Assembly (NCBI GenBank): GCA_001648575.1 | Contig: LQXN01000063.1 | Location: 1-64,000 of the forward strand | Source of the DNA: Sutcliffiella horikoshii DSM 8719 | GTDB lineage: Bacteria; Bacillota; Bacilli; Bacillales; Bacillaceae_I | Reading direction: 5' to 3' | DNA: 64,000 nt | Shown: positions 47-61,478 of the stretch, in pieces | Layout of the letters: every line of letters begins with the position of its first letter | Numbering within the stretch: position 1 is the stretch's first letter | The notes under the pieces: model-generated | Told to the model about the DNA's origin: nothing | The model's database searches: none | Seen by the model: the letters and a program-made list of their open reading frames with translations, nothing else | Program-made: the position numbers and the translations under genes

Positions 47-92
47 AAGCAGAAGAATGTTTAAGTTTTTAAACCCTCTTCTGCTTTTTTTG
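47..92 (+). terminator. Intrinsic terminator
   Basis: Arms AGCAGAAGA and TCTTCTGCT are separated by about 28 bases and followed by a run of seven T on the plus strand. It probably ends a gene lying left of the window. Confidence 0.6.
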
Positions 93-614
93 TTAAATAA
101 TATTTTTAAATAAATATTTAGGTGGTATTCAATTGATTTCTAGCTAAGAGTACTTTAATCTCTAGTTATCTATGATATTGTAGTCTCAAAAAATAATATG
201 TTTCGTCAAATAAATGAACTTGTAGATTGCATGTTTATCAGGACCGTCCCTTTTTTTTCAGCTTCCTTTAGCTTTGCATAAGTGATGTTGAGAACTGTTT
301 AGCTTTATTTGATGAAAAATGATTTATTCAACTTGACGGTTACGCGATGTGATGGCTTTACAGATCCATCAATGATGTGGTCTTTTCAATGGCAGAGGTG
401 GATCAATTTGATGTATGCGGTTGGCCAAAAACATGGCAATGATCTAAAAATAAATAAAGGGTCGAGGTATTCTTCCCTCGACCTTCTCTTATGAAATCTG
501 AAAAAGAAAAAGATCCATAGCTCCAAAAGGGTAGATACCTGTCTCAAGTGCAAGATTAAATCACTTGGCCCTTCGTCGGGCCATCAATATTGGTAAATGG
601 AAAAAGTAAGCCAT

Positions 615-652
615 AAAAAAGATCAGTGGTTTTGAGCCACTGATCTTTTTTA
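615..652 (-). terminator. Intrinsic terminator of the small secreted peptide gene
   Basis: AAAGATCAGTGG pairs with CCACTGATCTTT around a six-base loop. A run of T on the minus strand and A/T tails on both sides make it potentially bidirectional. It begins four bases after the stop codon of the minus-strand gene at 656. Confidence 0.8.
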
Positions 653-655
653 TGA

Positions 656-856
656 CTATAGGCATACGTGGTTTGGTCCACCTGGGTTATGTGGGTACCA
701 AGTACAAGGTTTTTTGGGACCATAACTACAGTCCGGAACCGCTCCAGCTGGTTGACAGCCCACGTTTCGTGATGCTGATGCATCTACTCCGTATAATGAA
801 GAAGCTAATATTGCTACCATACTTAAAATTCCAAGCTTTTTTCTGAAGTTTTTCAT
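656..856 (-). CDS. Small secreted cysteine-containing peptide, function unknown
   Basis: A 66-residue protein. Residues 1 to about 28 form a Sec-type signal peptide: a basic start (MKNFRKKLG), a hydrophobic core and a small-residue stretch (VDASAS) that could be cut. The predicted mature part is only about 38 residues, with four Cys, several Pro and Gly, and the ending PGGPNHVCL. I chose the second ATG because AAGGAG lies nine bases before it, whereas the upstream ATG (at 865) abuts the ribosome binding site. A strong terminator follows directly, so it is a complete single-gene unit. I do not recognise the family. Four Cys could form two disulfides, as in small toxins or bacteriocins, but no immunity or export gene lies beside it. 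Confidence 0.65.
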   Translation of the reverse strand: MKNFRKKLGILSMVAILASSLYGVDASASRNVGCQPAGAVPDCSYGPKKPCTWYPHNPGGPNHVCL

Positions 857-1396
857 TATGTTCATCTCCTTTTATGTAATACCTAAATAATAACATTAAC
901 CGACATAAAAAATGGAAATATTTCAAATATTTTATATTCTTCTAGGAATAATTACTCTAACACTTATATAAAATGAGTAGTTTGTAATAGTTTAATGTAG
1001 TAACGTTAATTTCCTTATTCTTTATACTTTTCTGCTTAAATAAGACAAAACGGGAGGTATGAACTAAAAAGGAATTTCATATAGGAGCTATTTTATTCTT
1101 GAATACTGGAATAAAGTCGATATATACAACTATCTTATATCTATCATCCACTATAAAATAATCTCAATAATAGAATTATAGACAGGTTCTTCGCTCCAAA
1201 GAATGACGAACCTGCCTTTTTATATTATTTCGATATACTATGCGAGATTAGTCGATATTTATCAAGATAAAAGTAAGACTATCAAACAAGTGAAAGCATT
1301 TTGCTTGTACAAACGTTGGTTTAAAATTAACTTTCTTAGTATACCTTTAACAATTCCTAACAAACGTGCGTCCCCGTGCTTCCAAGCACTACTCTC
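857..1396. other. Intergenic stretch, no clear gene
   Basis: AT-rich DNA upstream of the secreted peptide gene. The only clear structure is a hairpin at 1181-1222 (arms AGGTTC and GAACCT with a plus-strand T-rich tail) that looks like a plus-strand terminator with no intact gene before it. A stop-interrupted frame of about 40 codons precedes it, which may be the relic of a small gene. The plus-strand open frame 1203-1454 runs antisense into the next gene and is not credible. Confidence 0.5.
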
Positions 1397-2026
1397 TCAA
1401 ATCGAATTCATTAAATCAAAAAAGTGTTCAGGTTTTTGTGTTTTGTTAAGTTGATACCATGAGTGTAATGTGGTGGGTGATAACACTTCTAGTTTTTCGA
1501 GTACTTCTCTTGCAAATTCGAGGGGAGCGATTCCGGATGCGGTGATTAGGTTATCACTGGTTGTTACGACCTGCTCCTCCTCGTGAAGCTTTTCTCCTTT
1601 GTAGTTGGGGCATACCATTTTTAAGTAGTCCAAGTTATTACTTGTATGTTTTCTTGTGTCGAGGCAGCCCATATTGGCAAGTCCCATGGTTGCGCCACAT
1701 ATTGCGGCTACTATCGTTCCTTTTTCCAATGCTTTAGCAACTGTTTGAAGGATGGGGTGTTGGGCAGTTTCTCCCCAGGTTTCCCCTCCAGGTAAAATAA
1801 GCAGGTCTGACTTTTTAAAGGTACAGTGATCAAGGGAAAGATCTGGGGTTATGTTGAGACCTCCCATTGTGGTAATCGTTTGTTTGGTTGTTCCTACTGT
1901 TATTATGTTCATAGGGGCGATTTCTTTTTTGAAGTATCTACCAGTGTTTAGTTCAGCGATTAAATAGCCATATTCCCAGTCTGACATAGTGTCGAATACA
2001 TATAAATAAGTTTTTCTTGTTTGCAT
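1397..2026 (-). CDS. DJ-1/PfpI family protein (class I glutamine amidotransferase-like)
   Basis: A 209-residue cytoplasmic protein of the DJ-1/PfpI superfamily, which includes chaperone-like proteins, glyoxalases and proteases. The nucleophile elbow is visible as AAICGAT, placing the candidate catalytic Cys at residue 110. An earlier LILPGGETW loop (about 77-85) supplies the glycine-rich turn typical of the fold, and the length is normal for the family. GGGAG lies about nine bases before the ATG. It stands alone: downstream is empty DNA and upstream is a terminator and a decayed regulator gene. The closest named relative I can suggest is the B. subtilis YdeA type; substrate unknown. Confidence 0.85.
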   Translation of the reverse strand: MQTRKTYLYVFDTMSDWEYGYLIAELNTGRYFKKEIAPMNIITVGTTKQTITTMGGLNITPDLSLDHCTFKKSDLLILPGGETWGETAQHPILQTVAKALEKGTIVAAICGATMGLANMGCLDTRKHTSNNLDYLKMVCPNYKGEKLHEEEQVVTTSDNLITASGIAPLEFAREVLEKLEVLSPTTLHSWYQLNKTQKPEHFFDLMNSI

Positions 2027-2064
2027 TTGCGATTGCTCCCATCATCATTGATATCTCTTAGTAT

Positions 2065-2105
2065 AATAAAACTTCCCTGACAACCGCTGTCAGGGAAGTT
2101 TTATT
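2065..2105. terminator. Bidirectional terminator-like hairpin
   Basis: CTTCCCTGACA pairs with TGTCAGGGAAG around a five-base loop, flanked by AATAAAA and TTTTATT, so it can act on either strand. It overlaps the stop codon of the WYL-type stub that follows. Confidence 0.7.
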
Positions 2106-2334
2106 CTTGATAAAGTTGTATCAATTCTGTAAGGTGTTGCATCATGTTTTCTTTAAGGCTGATCGGTTCAATAATTTTGATAGATGTACCGAAAGGGATG
2201 AGTAAGGCAGGGACATAGGCATGCATCGTTTTTTCTTCAAGGAGGAATGTTGCTTGACTCTCCGTTCTTTCTTGTAAGTAATGCTCAAAAAACCAATGTA
2301 GGCAGATGTTTTTTAGTGAATTCTCTTTCCCGGT
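2101..2334 (-). pseudogene. C-terminal stub of a WYL-domain transcriptional regulator
   Basis: Read on the minus strand, about 75 codons stay open and end in a TAA at 2101-2103. The translation contains LKNICLHWFFEHYLQERTES followed by TMHAYVPALLIPFG. This has the look of the C-terminal region of YafY/YobV-type HTH-WYL regulators, which sense ligands and are often autoregulated. No helix-turn-helix half and no start codon with a ribosome binding site are present upstream, so only the 3' end survives. The family call rests on my reading of the sequence. Confidence 0.5.
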
Positions 2335-2499
2335 AAGTACTTAACGGGAAATGTACCTTCGGAGCTCTTCCTATGCTTCACTATCTAGCTGGTGAAGTAA
2401 GTTATTGTACACACAAAAATTAGTCAATCCTCGTAATGGCATGGGGGATAAAAGAGGTTTTATTTGCTTTCATAAAAACAGACAGCTAGCCACAAATTC

Positions 2500-2862
2500 T
2501 TGACCACCTGCCTTATAACTCTTTCTTCAATTCAAGTCCTGGAAATGGTTCGAGGGACTGTTCCCTCGACCCACCAGGAAGAGTGGCATTTAGATTTCAG
2601 GTATTTTCGTACCCGAGAAGATGACGAAAAACACTTTAGGGATGATATACGTGCAAGAGAAATTATTTGGCGTACTTATGGTCGATTAACCATATTTGAT
2701 AAGAGCCCTATAACAAAATTTACTTTAGCGGTTAGTAATGAAAAAATATATAAGGTTATATTAAAATACCCACCCCGATTGTTAAATCTAAGCGTTTCTA
2801 CCATGTTAATTGATTTAAATACTGGTAAAATTATCGATGATCAAATATTAACATATGAATAA
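2500..2862 (+). pseudogene. Orphan reading frame, probably a gene remnant
   Basis: An open frame of 120 codons whose only upstream starts are TTG-type and lack a ribosome binding site. Its first third runs through a hairpin repeat at 2551-2576 and does not look coding. From about codon 28 to the end the sequence has normal protein character (for example REIIWRTYGRLTIFDKSP and STMLIDLNTGKIIDDQ) and ends cleanly at a TAA before a hairpin. I do not recognise it. It may be the 3' end of a gene truncated by rearrangement. Confidence 0.35.
2551..2576. repeat. Hairpin repeat GAGGGACtgtTCCCTC
   Basis: CGAGGGA and TCCCTCG are perfect inverted arms around CTGT, with GGTT and ACC extending the dyad. 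A related hairpin with GGTCGAGG and CCCTCGACC arms lies near 461-486. It differs from the GGGTCWGACCC palindromes found further right. Confidence 0.5.
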
Positions 2863-2887
2863 GTCTTATTTTTTCTAACCCAAATAA

Positions 2888-2916
2888 GCCCGCCTAGCTG
2901 TAGTAGCTAAGCGGGC
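2888..2916. terminator. Hairpin between decayed genes
   Basis: GCCCGC pairs with GCGGGC, and CTAGCT with AGCTA inside it. There is no clean T-run on either side, so terminator function is uncertain. It lies between the plus-strand remnant ending at 2862 and the minus-strand galE stub ending at 2937. Confidence 0.45.
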
Positions 2917-2936
2917 AATCACATAATAGTAAATAC

Positions 2937-3046
2937 TTATTGTTCCTTAAAGTTCTTCTCATATCGCCATGCATCACGGCAAATCGTCACAATGTCACGT
3001 TTAGCATTCCACCCTAGTTCCCTTTCAAGCTTTAGATGCATCAGCG
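2937..3046 (-). pseudogene. C-terminal stub of a UDP-glucose/UDP-galactose 4-epimerase (GalE-like)
   Basis: About 36 codons remain open on the minus strand and end at TAA (2937-2939). They contain LKLERELGWNAKRDIV and ICRDAWRYEKNFKEQ, matching the usual GalE C-terminus, where a helix with LGW and a late W-R/W motif precede the end. The frame is lost upstream, where the sequence runs into unrelated DNA before the ABC transporter gene. It is most simply the last remnant of an epimerase gene that once closed the polysaccharide operon. Confidence 0.65.
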
Positions 3047-3156
3047 TAACAAGAGGAAATCCTCAGGGTTTTACTCTCCTTGTACGAGAATAGAAATACG
3101 CTATAACTCTTGCATTATTATTCCGAACTTGCCTATTATCACTACATATTAGTTGA

Positions 3157-4917
3157 TTATTTAACGACTTTAGAAATTAGTTCCCCATTTGACATAGTAA
3201 ATACTATATCACAGTTCTCAATTGTACTTAATCGATGAGCAATAATAATTAAAGTTTTATCGCCTTTCAAACCATCAATAGCTTTCATAATTTCCTTCTC
3301 AGTCTCATTATCTAATGCGGATGTAGCCTCATCTAAAAATAAAATTTCAGGATTATGGTATAGTGCTCTTGCAATACCTATCCGTTGTCGTTGTCCACCA
3401 GATAACCTCACTCCACGTTCCCCTACAAAAGTATCTAATTTATCAGGCAAGTTAGATACATGATCTTTTAATTGTGCTTTTTCTAATGCATTCCACACTG
3501 CCTGATCATCAATATCCTTATCCTCTAGACCAAACGCTATATTTCTACGAATAGTATCATCAGAAAGATATATAGATTGAGGGATATACCCAATTTTTTG
3601 TTGCCAGAGTTTTTTTATCTCATTTGTTTCTTTTCCATCTACTTTAACCAAACCTTTGGATGGCTTTAATACTCCCAAAATAATATCAACAATAGTTGTT
3701 TTACCTGAACCTGATTCCCCTATAAAAGCAACAGATTGCCCAATAGGAATTGATAAACTAACATCTTTTACTGCATCTTCATGAGCAGTGGGATAGCAGA
3801 ATGATACATTTTCAACATCTATTGAACTTGTAAACTCCTTTTCCCTATTACTTTCTACTACATTTTGATCTTTAAACCCATCTATCATTGTTGAGCGTTC
3901 TAAACTTTCTGTCACTATATCATGATAAATTACATCAAGAGCTGGTTTATTATGACGTATTTGAGTCAATGAAGTTACCATTCGGTTTATAGATGGCATC
4001 AGCCTAAATGCCGCCATAGCAAACAGAGCTGTAGTTGATAATAATTGGTTTAAATCCTGAGTTTGGATCATAATTACTAAAATTACCATTAATATAGTAG
4101 CAACGACTATTGTTTCTATAAATAAACGAGGTACTTGTTTAATTAATTCATGAAAACGAGTAGAATGTGAAAACTTTTTACTTTCATTTGAATAGGCTTC
4201 TATAAAGAACTTTTCTCTTCCTAATACTTTAACTTCTTTAGCGGCTCCCAATCCTTGATTTACCCATTTAATCATACCACCTTGTGCGCTTTGTTGAGCT
4301 TTACCAGCTTCTGCAATTTTTTTTCGGAATAGTCTTAGAAACACGCCTACCGAAGTTCCCAGGATTAAACCAGATAATATTGTAGCTATAGGGGCCATAA
4401 TTAATAACAGCGCAAGAATTGATAATATAACTAGTAATTCTGTAACAAAAAGAAATGTAGGCACAATTATGCCCTTAAAGACTTTTTGTATTTCAGTATT
4501 CGTATTTCGAACAAGGTCAGCTGAATTCCGCTGTAAGTGAAACGTATATGGCTTCTTTAAATAAGCCGTAAGTAGTTTCTTAGACATTTTAACTTGTTCA
4601 TTATAAATTACTCTATATTGAGTATTGTAAAACCACACTAAATATAAATTTTTCAAAATAAAAAAACCTAAAAGTGCCATGGTAGCTGTAATAAGAAACG
4701 CATTAGTAGATTGAAAGCCTAAAAATTCGTATGCAGCTAGTAAAATTGTTTGTTCAAAAATCATCTCTGGATTAGTTACTATCCCAACAAAAGGAGCAAT
4801 TAACCCAATTCCTAATGTTTCAAACAGTGCAGCAAATATCATTAAAATAAAGAGTATTGAAAATTTCTTTTGTTCTTTTCGTCCAAATAACTTACGCAAC
4901 TTTTGTATATTATTCAT
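3157..4917 (-). CDS. PglK-like ABC exporter / lipid-linked oligosaccharide flippase
   Basis: A 586-residue half-transporter with an N-terminal membrane domain (about six helices in residues 15-320) fused to a nucleotide-binding domain. Walker A GESGSGKTT is near residue 400, the signature LSGGQRQR near 505, Walker B ILFLDEATSALD near 525 and the H-loop His (AHRLST) near 561. FHLQRNSADLVRNTNTEI and MIKWVNQGLGAAKEVKVLG resemble PglK, the ABC flippase of C. jejuni lipid-linked glycans. It is the last intact gene of the cluster, and no Wzx-type flippase is visible, so it probably flips the undecaprenyl-linked repeat unit. I prefer the ATG at 4917; the frame is open to a TTG at 4947, and neither has a strong ribosome binding site. 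Confidence 0.85.
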   Translation of the reverse strand: MNNIQKLRKLFGRKEQKKFSILFILMIFAALFETLGIGLIAPFVGIVTNPEMIFEQTILLAAYEFLGFQSTNAFLITATMALLGFFILKNLYLVWFYNTQYRVIYNEQVKMSKKLLTAYLKKPYTFHLQRNSADLVRNTNTEIQKVFKGIIVPTFLFVTELLVILSILALLLIMAPIATILSGLILGTSVGVFLRLFRKKIAEAGKAQQSAQGGMIKWVNQGLGAAKEVKVLGREKFFIEAYSNESKKFSHSTRFHELIKQVPRLFIETIVVATILMVILVIMIQTQDLNQLLSTTALFAMAAFRLMPSINRMVTSLTQIRHNKPALDVIYHDIVTESLERSTMIDGFKDQNVVESNREKEFTSSIDVENVSFCYPTAHEDAVKDVSLSIPIGQSVAFIGESGSGKTTIVDIILGVLKPSKGLVKVDGKETNEIKKLWQQKIGYIPQSIYLSDDTIRRNIAFGLEDKDIDDQAVWNALEKAQLKDHVSNLPDKLDTFVGERGVRLSGGQRQRIGIARALYHNPEILFLDEATSALDNETEKEIMKAIDGLKGDKTLIIIAHRLSTIENCDIVFTMSNGELISKVVK

Positions 4918-24500: not shown

Positions 24501-24562
24501 GGGTCAGACCCCCGCGAGGGGGTTTTTGATTAGTTTAGGTTTTTGTTTTGGGGGTCAGACCC
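24501..24562. repeat. Two REP-like palindromes (24501-24511 and 24552-24562)
   Basis: Two exact copies of GGGTCAGACCC, 51 bases apart, in the intergenic region downstream of the acyltransferase gene. The first is extended by CCCGCGAGGGGG. They belong to the GGGTCWGACCC family with 15 exact copies in this window. Confidence 0.8.
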
Positions 24563-35017: not shown

Positions 35018-35028
35018 GGGTCTGACCC
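35018..35028. repeat. REP-like palindrome
   Basis: GGGTCTGACCC inside the sequence CCTTTGGGGGTCTGACCCCTTTTTT between the DUF485 gene and a small membrane protein gene. The T-run on the plus strand makes it terminator-like. Confidence 0.75.
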
Positions 35029-41067: not shown

Positions 41068-41222
41068 GGGTCAGACCCCTCTTTAGTTCTTTACTGCTTT
41101 AACGGAGAGCGGGTCAGACCCCTCTTTAGTTCTTTATTGCTTTAACGGAGAGCGGGTCAGACCCCTCTTTAGTTCTTTATTGCTTTAACGGAGAGCGGGT
41201 CAGACCCCTCTTTAGTTCTTTA
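41068..41222. repeat. 43-bp tandem array, each unit carrying a REP-like palindrome
   Basis: Four units beginning at 41068, 41111, 41154 and 41197, each starting GGGTCAGACCC followed by CTCTTTAGTTCTTTA and a spacer ending in TTTAACGGAGAGC. The middle two units are identical; the first differs at one base after TTTA and the last is cut short. The array lies between ywrB and the gamma-glutamyltransferase stop codon. Confidence 0.9.
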
Positions 41223-42910: not shown

Positions 42911-43507
42911 TTATTTTTTCAAAATAAGAAATTTTGCTTTGTTGTTGGGGGTGAAATGGATTCTGGTGTTCGGAGTGTTGACGTATTGTGGGTAGGATCC
43001 TTCGTGGTGGGTGGTGGAAAAGTATTTCAGGATGTCTTTTGTTGTGACGAGGGGGTCGTGTTGGTTGTTGTAGAGGTATTGCTTGTAGCTGCTGAACGGA
43101 TAGTCTTCGGGGTTATGGACCATTTTGGCGGCGACCGGGTTGAGATGAATGTATTTGCTGACGTCGATCTGGTAATCGATTTCGTTGATGATGCGGGATT
43201 TGAATCTTCCTTCTAGGACGTGGCCTGTGAGCTTGTATTTGCGGTTAATGTACTGGGCGTATTTGGTGTTGATTTTCTGCATGATGAGGCTGATGTGGGT
43301 GGTTTCTGTTTCTATTAGCAGGTGGGTGTGGTTGGTCATAATGCAGTAGGCATGTAGTTTGAACGGGTATTTGTACTTGATTTCGAGGAGAATGCGCTTG
43401 TAGGTTTGATAATCTTTTGGTTCAAAGAAGATGACGCTTCGGCGGTTTCCTCTGGTGGTGACGTGGTACATGGCTCCGGGGAACCAGATCCTTGGGTTTC
43501 TTGGCAT
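42911..43507 (-). CDS. RAYT-type REP-associated Y1/HUH transposase
   Basis: A 198-residue Y1-family protein. MPRNPRIWFPGAMYHVTTRG is the typical N-terminus, MTNHTHLLI (about 74-82) is the HUH metal site, and VSKYIHLNPVAAKMV (about 129-143) carries the catalytic-Tyr region, with FSSYKQYL after it. Such single-copy enzymes nick single-stranded DNA and are linked to REP palindromes rather than to their own insertion sequence. AAGGAG lies about ten bases before the ATG at 43507. The frame runs open for 73 more codons upstream but crosses two REP-like palindromes. Two exact copies of GGGTCWGACCC lie within 200 bases upstream. Confidence 0.88.
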   Translation of the reverse strand: MPRNPRIWFPGAMYHVTTRGNRRSVIFFEPKDYQTYKRILLEIKYKYPFKLHAYCIMTNHTHLLIETETTHISLIMQKINTKYAQYINRKYKLTGHVLEGRFKSRIINEIDYQIDVSKYIHLNPVAAKMVHNPEDYPFSSYKQYLYNNQHDPLVTTKDILKYFSTTHHEGSYPQYVNTPNTRIHFTPNNKAKFLILKK

Positions 43508-43605
43508 GTAGATGGTACTCCTTTCGGGGATGGGATTGGGGTTAGGGTTGTGTGGGATGCTGGTTGGTGGAGAGGGTTCGACATGTTGGGTGAAAATCCT
43601 TTGGG

Positions 43606-43699
43606 GGTCAGACCCCTTTTCGTCCGCCAAATTCCGACACATTTCCTTACTTAGGTTGTATTCGTGATGAAGGGGGGAATTCCTGCTGGGGTCTGACCC
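43606..43699. repeat. Two REP-like palindromes upstream of the RAYT gene (43606-43616 and 43689-43699)
   Basis: Exact GGGTCAGACCC and GGGTCTGACCC in opposite sense, 83 bases apart, inside TTTGGGGGTCAGACCCCTTTT and GCTGGGGTCTGACCCCCTTT. They lie within 200 bases of the RAYT start codon, the usual place for REP sequences tied to their transposase. Confidence 0.85.
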
Positions 43700-43732
43700 C
43701 CTTTTTGAAAAAAATTTATTGGGCATAAAAAT

Positions 43733-44976: not shown

Positions 44977-45060
44977 GGGTCAGACCCCGGCAGGAGCCGG
45001 GGTCTGACGGGTGAACCTCTATTCGACGTAGAAGAGGAAAATCCTTTGGGGGTCTGACCC
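44977..45060. repeat. REPIN-like pair plus a third REP-like palindrome
   Basis: GGGTCAGACCC at 44977-44987 and an inverted partner GGGTCTGACGG at about 45000-45010 enclose CGGCAGGAGCCG. Together GGGGTCAGACCCCGGC and GCCGGGGTCTGAC form one long hairpin. A further exact copy, GGGTCTGACCC, lies at 45050-45060, between spoIIQ and spoIID. Confidence 0.75.
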
Positions 45061-45090
45061 CCAAAGAAAATTTTTTTCTCTCTCCCCTCT

Positions 45091-46421: not shown

Positions 46422-46451
46422 GTTCCTTCGGGGGTCAGACCCCCGAAGGAA
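46422..46451. repeat. Perfect hairpin built on a REP-like palindrome
   Basis: TTCCTTCGGGGGTC pairs with GACCCCCGAAGGAA around a single A, an almost uninterrupted 29-base palindrome with GGGTCAGACCC at its centre. A run of A before it may allow termination of minus-strand transcripts. Confidence 0.8.
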
Positions 46452-46502
46452 TTTCCGCCATCATGTCGAAGTGGCCCCTCGCATTATGAAAAAAAAACAG
46501 AA

Positions 46503-46537
46503 AAAGGGTCAGACCCCTAAAGGAGTCTGACCCTTGA
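46503..46537 (-). terminator. Terminator of murA, made of inverted REP-like halves
   Basis: AAGGGTCAGAC and GTCTGACCCTT form the stem, CCCCTAAAGGA the loop. On the minus strand it is followed by TTTTTCTG. The arms are the two halves of the GGGTCWGACCC family. Confidence 0.8.
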
Positions 46538-48865: not shown

Positions 48866-48876
48866 GGGTCAGACCC
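48866..48876. repeat. REP-like palindrome
   Basis: Exact GGGTCAGACCC within TTTTTGGGGGTCAGACCCCGGC, upstream of ywmB. Confidence 0.8.
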
Positions 48877-61467: not shown

Positions 61468-61478
61468 GGGTCAGACCC
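61468..61478. repeat. REP-like palindrome
   Basis: Exact GGGTCAGACCC followed by CCTCTTCATCTCTTTA, close in sequence to the units of the 43-bp array at 41068-41222. Confidence 0.8.

Follow-up and report, generated by a model that had tools for sequence, protein, structure and literature searches.

The gene at 42911-43507 of the 64,000-nucleotide stretch analyzed here (the window), which belongs to the genome of Sutcliffiella horikoshii DSM 8719 (G000), encodes an HUH protein that probably forms, together with a cognate dispersed palindrome (GGGTCWGACCC), a REP-RAYT system of Bacillales; the probability of this reading is put at about 0.8. The palindrome is abundant, biased towards intergenic DNA, found in the same genomes as the RAYT, exchanged together with it, crowded around its gene and conserved in position between two species. 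The predicted fold of the protein is RAYT-like, and its catalytic motifs are invariant. A sequence-only reading had proposed a candidate REP-RAYT system at this place. It is supported, with three corrections: the palindromes are not of the GTAG type, they belong to at least two element types, and not every copy is intergenic, a few being located within genes.

The RAYT gene and its palindromes

The protein had been described as a single Y1/HUH protein of RAYT type, and this description holds. Its reading frame is intact (198 aa), it matches Pfam Y1_Tnp with E=1.6e-13, and its AlphaFold model (pLDDT 91.8) has as best PDB match 4er8, an E. coli RAYT with REP (E=5.7e-10), with IS200/IS605 TnpA structures next. 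The start at 43507 was picked by its RBS and by agreement with relatives; the longest in-frame ORF reaches 271 aa, and its start would take in two palindromes. The NHxH and YIHxNP motifs are invariant in 29 aligned RAYT sequences (window protein included, broken loci left out). As in the RAYT family, the Y1 HUH fold is predicted, NP follows the tyrosine motif, and the gene occurs in single copy at a stable chromosomal locus. As to the C-terminal HTH extension of TnpAY1 subclass 2.1, no HTH domain was found by Pfam search in the window RAYT or in two longer relatives, and only a sub-threshold one in L072.

The genus assignment to Sutcliffiella (Bacillus horikoshii group) agrees with named relatives of the genome. 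The neighbors of the gene in the window are ggt, spoIIQ, spoIID, and murA. The gene adjoins ggt in all seven named Sutcliffiella loci, as well as in genomes G003, G009, and G017, and spoIIQ is found on its other flank in six of the seven. The claim that the gene has no insertion-sequence ends stands for its downstream side, where ggt begins 58 bp beyond the stop, with no palindrome in that gap and the nearest one about 1.7 kb off. Three genomes (G003, G006, and G010) carry an additional, distant RAYT-like gene (34-36% identity). Relatives, all below 60% identity, are present in 12 plasmid records and one phage record.

A recount of the window gave the same 15 exact palindromes, from 24501 to 61478, as had been reported, and the expectation of far less than one by chance agrees with 100 dinucleotide shuffles (mean 0.01, largest 1). 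Two of them lie within 200 bases upstream of the RAYT, as stated earlier: those at 43605 and 43689 are 98 and 182 bp from its start. Over the whole genome (4.68 Mb), the count called for by the sequence-only reading yielded 98 exact copies, and none of the same word read backwards as a control. This genome has a second RAYT match, on contig C28. Bases 87-3881 of that contig repeat window positions 44995-41201 without a mismatch (100% identity) and are most likely an assembly duplicate. Because four of the 98 copies sit on this repeat, 94 distinct copies are counted. Beyond the identical part, at C28 1-105 (L018), two palindrome flanks resemble by eye the stretch C66:97180-97274, and the start of C28 may be an artificial join made at repeats during assembly or a genuine rearrangement ending in palindromes.

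The statement that no palindrome lies inside a gene is correct for the window, where all 15 are intergenic given the start at 43507, but not genome-wide, since five of the 98 copies are inside ORFs 277-902 aa long and some ten others are in uncertain ORFs of 63-164 aa; these calls, like the orientation counts below, rest on a crude longest-ORF gene finder. The family has the features of REPs in the wide sense, namely many palindromic copies that are mostly intergenic. At gathering thresholds, Rfam matched nothing at the palindromes of the window; its sole match there is an epsC RNA element (RF01735, 15496-15616, minus strand, 103.6 bits).

Table 1. The RAYT gene and palindrome-bearing features of the window.
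Feature	Position	Strand	Remarks
RAYT-type Y1/HUH transposase gene	42911..43507	-	198 aa; both motifs (NHTH, YIHLNP) intact
Type A REP unit upstream of RAYT	43577..43616	.	Core 43605-43615; conserved TTCGACAT at 43577-43584 (+ reading)
Second REP unit upstream of RAYT	43661..43700	.	Core 43689-43699; type A-like, diverged box TTCGTGAT
Type B array of four palindromes, 43-bp spacing	41068..41207	+	Spacers are ~8-bp units such as CTGCTTTAA
Two palindromes 73 bp apart, spoIIQ-spoIID gap	44977..45060	.	Same place in G009
Two palindromes 74 bp apart, spoIID-murA gap	46432..46516	.	Both in strong terminator-like hairpins, - strand, after murA
Type A palindrome	48866..48876	+	Same place in G009; GGGCCAGACCC in that gap in G003
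Two palindromes 51 bp apart	24501..24562	+	From exact-word count; no alignment with G009
Type A palindrome	35018..35028	-	Same place in G009
Palindrome with type B flanks	61468..61478	+	Same place in G009

Among the copies, at least two types of composite element can be distinguished (Table 1). Type A, read in the terminator direction, consists of TTCGACRT, about eight variable bases, AAATTCCT, and the core palindrome, which frequently has a pairing outer stem and a T-run. The type A set comprises the 33 of 94 copies that match this pattern; the second unit upstream of the RAYT (43661..43700) fails it. Other Sutcliffiella loci likewise have a palindrome upstream of the RAYT. In type B, the cores are spaced by 31-43 bp, with spacers of ~8-bp units containing TTTAA; spacings of 31-43 bp, in direct order in most cases, recur across the window genome. 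No shared nicking tetranucleotide, which an alignment of flanks had been suggested to reveal, was identified; TTCGAC, which is conserved about 20 nt away from the type A core, is a candidate.

One strand of type A could be read as a sigma-H promoter (AGGAATTT ... GTCGAAT), but this was dropped because T follows GAA in just 12 of the 33 copies and 23 of 33 point to the 3' end of the following gene. Separately, sigma-H-like motifs, AGG(A/G)...GT(A/C)GAAT, occur 59-94 bp before the RAYT of L144, L146, L152, and L162, loci of other genera, away from any palindrome. They may be due to chance, and a sigma-H promoter for the RAYT gene itself is possible from these motifs.

Distribution, exchange and positions of the palindromes

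The sequence-only reading would have been contradicted by a palindrome density unrelated to the RAYT across relatives; in fact, density follows the RAYT ortholog in the genus and, over a larger survey, the strength of the RAYT match. Among 18 genomes of the family, all 11 genus genomes with a RAYT ortholog (about 85-100% identity) hold 80-100 palindromes each, against 0-1 in the three without one, which have a distant RAYT-like gene or none (G004 1, G013 0, G011 0). Genomes of other genera without an ortholog have two copies (G001) or none (G002), and G003 and G017, with RAYTs of 63% and 60% identity, have 15 and 9. In G016, which keeps 91 palindromes, the match to the RAYT is broken into two pieces (85% and 77%) in different frames. 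This genus-level co-occurrence could reflect a single clade-level event.

Across 299 genomes of the order, sorted by the strength of their RAYT match, those holding at least 10 copies of GGGTCWGACCC or GGGACWGTCCC number 37 of 119 where the match is strong (E<=1e-40), 12 of 48 where it is medium (up to 1e-20), and 4 of 132 where it is weaker or absent. The association gave p=0.0002 in a within-family permutation excluding the own genus. The remaining 82 of the 119 strong-match genomes have fewer than 10 copies of either word, these two being the only words counted there. Counts of GGGACAGTCCC were entered for genomes with about eight or more and for a few others, and otherwise as zero, which leaves the tallies of at least 10 unaffected and slightly affects rank tests.

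Four genomes without a clear RAYT nevertheless reach 10 copies (G069 65, G244 33, G051 29, and G170 14). A Y1_Tnp search found only short proteins in three of them, which look like IS200 transposases by length and score, and no match in G170 (80% complete). Together with the split RAYT of G016, these exceptions tell against a strict dependence of the palindrome on the RAYT. G170 also shows, at two places (L193 and L194), GGGACWGTCCC pairs about 109 bp apart around a near-identical insert, which is a different element type.

The palindrome also changes with the RAYT, a co-switch that exceeds what the sequence-only reading had proposed. The same-locus RAYTs of G003 and G017, only 60-63% identical to the window protein while the neighboring ggt is 91-93% identical, are adjoined by GGGGCCAGACCCC. 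This variant is present in 47 copies in G003, 39 in G017, 5 in G004, and 1 in G007, and in none of the remaining 14 of the 18 genomes. The spoIIQ-spoIID gap holds GGGCCAGACCC in G003 and G017 and GGGTCAGACCC in G000, and G003 repeats this exchange near 48866 and after murA.

Mapping was done with 29 of the 92 variant sites (12 from G003, 12 from G017, and 5 from G004). Of these, 15 matched a compared G000 stretch, 14 of them with a core within 450 bp. As stretches beyond C66 1-164000 (the window with adjoining sequence, used in full) were selected for palindromes, only one figure is used: six of the seven G017 variant sites mapped to C66 1-164000 are within 450 bp of a G000 core, while 11% of that stretch is that close. 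One of the six is the spot before the RAYT itself. The mapped positions suggest that the palindrome switch took place at least partly in place.

Copies are crowded around the RAYT. The window holds 15 of the 94 G000 copies (1.3 expected). In G016, 8 of 68 palindrome clusters are no more than 25 kb from the RAYT, where 0.69 would be expected. For the variant, 9 of 47 copies in G003 are within 20 kb (0.54 expected), or six after collapsing neighbors within 1 kb, and 4 of 39 in G017 (0.37 expected), still four after collapsing. When G016 was scanned with windows of 25-100 kb, the peak stood off to one side of the RAYT, by about 14 to 100 kb, whereas at 200 kb it included the RAYT; 0.65-2.2% of all centers score as well as the RAYT. 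In sampled sequence, GTGCCAGGCAC has six copies in the 20 kb of the G001 RAYT and two in the other 180 kb, and GGGACAGTCCC has seven in the 20 kb of the G004 RAYT and none in the remainder. As a side observation in G016, the strand of GGGTCAGACCC differs by contig half (7+/23- and 38+/23-), replication direction and gene orientation being confounded.

Positions are shared between species. Of the 23 G009 sites in the region compared, 22 could be mapped onto G000, and all 22 fall in an interval holding a G000 site, with diverged flanks. Differences chiefly concern unit number in arrays (G009 has two units at the place of the window array 41068..41207) and decayed cores. Judged from these alignments, the palindrome sites are old, and the shared intervals suit maintained sites as well as mobile ones. 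No precise insertions or empty sites were recognized between the two genomes: the G009 sequence opposite G000 site 135335 lacks a palindrome and has gaps unlike a precise insertion, and 24501/24552 and 43605/43689 are not alignable. Since no clean insertion was seen, mobility is something we can only infer. A related hairpin-like sequence without the palindrome follows murA in G011 and G013, which have no RAYT ortholog, and may be a decayed or ancestral form.

The same pairing extends to other genera of Bacillales. With no word preset, the commonest GC-rich 11-bp palindrome reached at least three copies in 20 of 32 RAYT-centered 10-kb loci. Without Sutcliffiella, this was the case for 13 of 25 loci, compared with 0 of 36 control windows drawn from two genomes, and no palindrome reached three copies in the other 12. 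The types found are GGGTCAGACCC, GGGACAGTCCC, GAGCCAGGCTC, GTCACAGTGAC (3), and, in G001, GTGCCAGGCAC, all with a C-W-G center (C-A-G in the GTCAC type). GAGCCAGGCTC, with 15-17 copies in the 10 kb around the RAYTs of L148, L153, and L155 (Rossellomorea and Bacillus salacetis), exceeds the density of GGGTCWGACCC in the window.

Palindrome type was placed on a RAYT tree of 39 rows, built without the broken loci L162, L165, L166, and L167 and the near-duplicates L138, L139, and L141; G145 was labeled from its whole-genome count and G157 from the commoner of two words. With labels at three or more copies, nine changes are needed, and none of 500 shuffles needed as few (3 of 500 after four near-identical rows were dropped). 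With labels at two or more, ten are needed, matched by 2 of 500 (0 of 500 without near-identical rows). On this tree, palindrome type follows the RAYT better than shuffled labels do. GGGTC and GGGAC each reappear in several clades, a recurrence read from uneven labels (L158 and L161 were labeled on two copies, L163 was not), while the shuffle test used even rules.

Known systems and competing readings

REP-RAYT (TnpA-REP) systems have been described in Proteobacteria (Nunvar 2010 PMC2817692; Bertels and Rainey 2011 PMC3116915; PMC8266576). The partnership known there is also found in this Bacillus-like group in a different form, with relatives pairing their own RAYT with their own palindrome. 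As far as the relevant parts of these papers describe the proteobacterial systems, the likeness covers one Y1 gene with its own family of dispersed palindromes, mainly between genes, a RAYT and a REP that co-evolve, with the RAYT diverging faster than a neighboring gene, and paired REPs and tandem arrays; in Thauera, an excerpt reports REPs as more numerous near the RAYT gene (PMC2817692), a precedent for crowding. Overall, the Sutcliffiella system resembles REP-RAYT in every testable feature except the GTAG foot and two-sided flanks, and its mechanism may be alike by analogy.

The system differs from GTAG systems in palindrome form and RAYT type. A GT[AG]G foot is present within 8 nt, on either side, in only 8 of the 98 copies (raw count), the dyad is continuous through a single-base center, unlike proteobacterial REPs as the cited passages present them, and, unlike in the REPtron, where REPs flank both sides, Sutcliffiella palindromes lie upstream of the RAYT only. 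The protein is closer to TnpAY1 subclass 2.1, for which the consulted sections of Quentin 2018 (PMC6006769) give the Y motif Y[IV]HLNP (or YIELNP), which YIHLNP fits. It departs from that subclass in having NHTH (NH[TIVL]H in aligned relatives) instead of NHVH or NH[YF]H, and it is shorter than TIRYT or subclass 2.1 proteins (198 aa against a median of 238; portions of PMC3733652 and PMC6006769). In the excerpted text of Di Nocera 2013 (PMC3733652), TIR families are moderately abundant for TIRYT and have the flank consensus GGGGWSAS, matched by palindromes starting GGGGTCAG or GGGGACAG. The same portions of the two papers report subclass 2.1 without nearby REP-like sequences, whereas the palindrome here has about 100 copies. 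Within one open-access library, no listed paper concerned a Bacillus or Firmicutes REP-RAYT, and those listed for the exact palindrome words appeared to concern other topics.

Outside Sutcliffiella, REPIN-like 50-nt units with two palindromes 39 bp apart are present in G145, G185, G248, G157, and G206 and at three named loci (25 distinct units). A covarying REPIN hairpin was rejected, as spacer pairing in these 25 units does not exceed that of shuffles (0.626 against a mean of 0.599 and a maximum of 0.651). Palindromes are found on both sides of the RAYT in G185, G253, G206, L149, L150, L154, and L157, which, together with the 39-bp pairs, suggests that the paired units arose by deletion from an element that carried a RAYT.

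It is unlikely that some other protein (a regulator or chromosome organizer) uses the palindromes as double-stranded binding sites, with the RAYT as a passenger of the clade. Such sites would account for the dyad symmetry with a single-base center, for a core that stays constant at orthologous places though its flanks diverge, for the absence of any exact site from 1.87 to 3.28 Mb in G016, and for the persistence of palindromes in some genomes without a RAYT, but not for different RAYTs having different palindromes within 10-20 kb, nor for a palindrome and a RAYT (the sole gene compared) having switched together at one locus.

An intrinsic terminator family kept by selection is quite improbable as the origin of the palindromes, although part of the evidence points to termination: type A copies are flanked by A/T runs, their outer stem pairing (4.03) exceeds the shuffle maximum (3.73), 23 of the 33 are oriented to end the neighboring gene (p=0.035), and hairpins resembling terminators are predicted at 46504-46535, 46423-46451, and 45042-45068. 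Termination needs no single 11-base core at about 100 places, missing in sister species without a RAYT ortholog, and arrays and paired units are unlike terminators. Terminator use is better regarded as a later co-option of some copies.

Finally, an ordinary IS200/IS605 element with its ends would share the Y1/HUH fold and the structural matches to TnpA, but is extremely improbable given the fixed locus beside ggt, the palindrome-free ~1.5 kb downstream, and the NCBIfam scores (24 bits for IS200, cut-off 55, against 78 for RAYT, just below its cut-off of 80).

Proposed mechanism and significance

Under the REP-RAYT reading, the RAYT would recognize a cognate palindrome of 11-13 bp, probably folded into a hairpin while the DNA is single-stranded, and would cut and copy palindrome-bearing units to new intergenic sites over long times. 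New copies would land preferentially near the RAYT's own gene, and the protein and the palindrome arms would change together. Many copies would since have been retained, some possibly serving as intrinsic terminators. A further, tentative possibility, which we hold to be somewhat less than even, is that the palindromes were rewritten in place, with inherited REP sites changing their arms together with the RAYT, through RAYT copying or selection on the sites.

If the REP-RAYT reading is right, Bacillota too would have such partnerships, in which the palindrome takes another form and the RAYT is similar to a type for which REPs have been reported as absent. The series of naturally occurring pairs of RAYT and palindrome (GGGTC, GGGCC, GGGAC, GAGCC, and GTGCC arms), for example GGGGTCWGACCCC versus GGGGCCAGACCCC, makes RAYT-REP recognition testable, and makes the long-term retention of RAYT and REP by cells a testable question as well. 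If in-place rewriting is true, a domesticated transposase would be driving a dispersed repeat to evolve in concert, and recognition across Bacillales would follow a code made up of a C-W-G center and variable arms.
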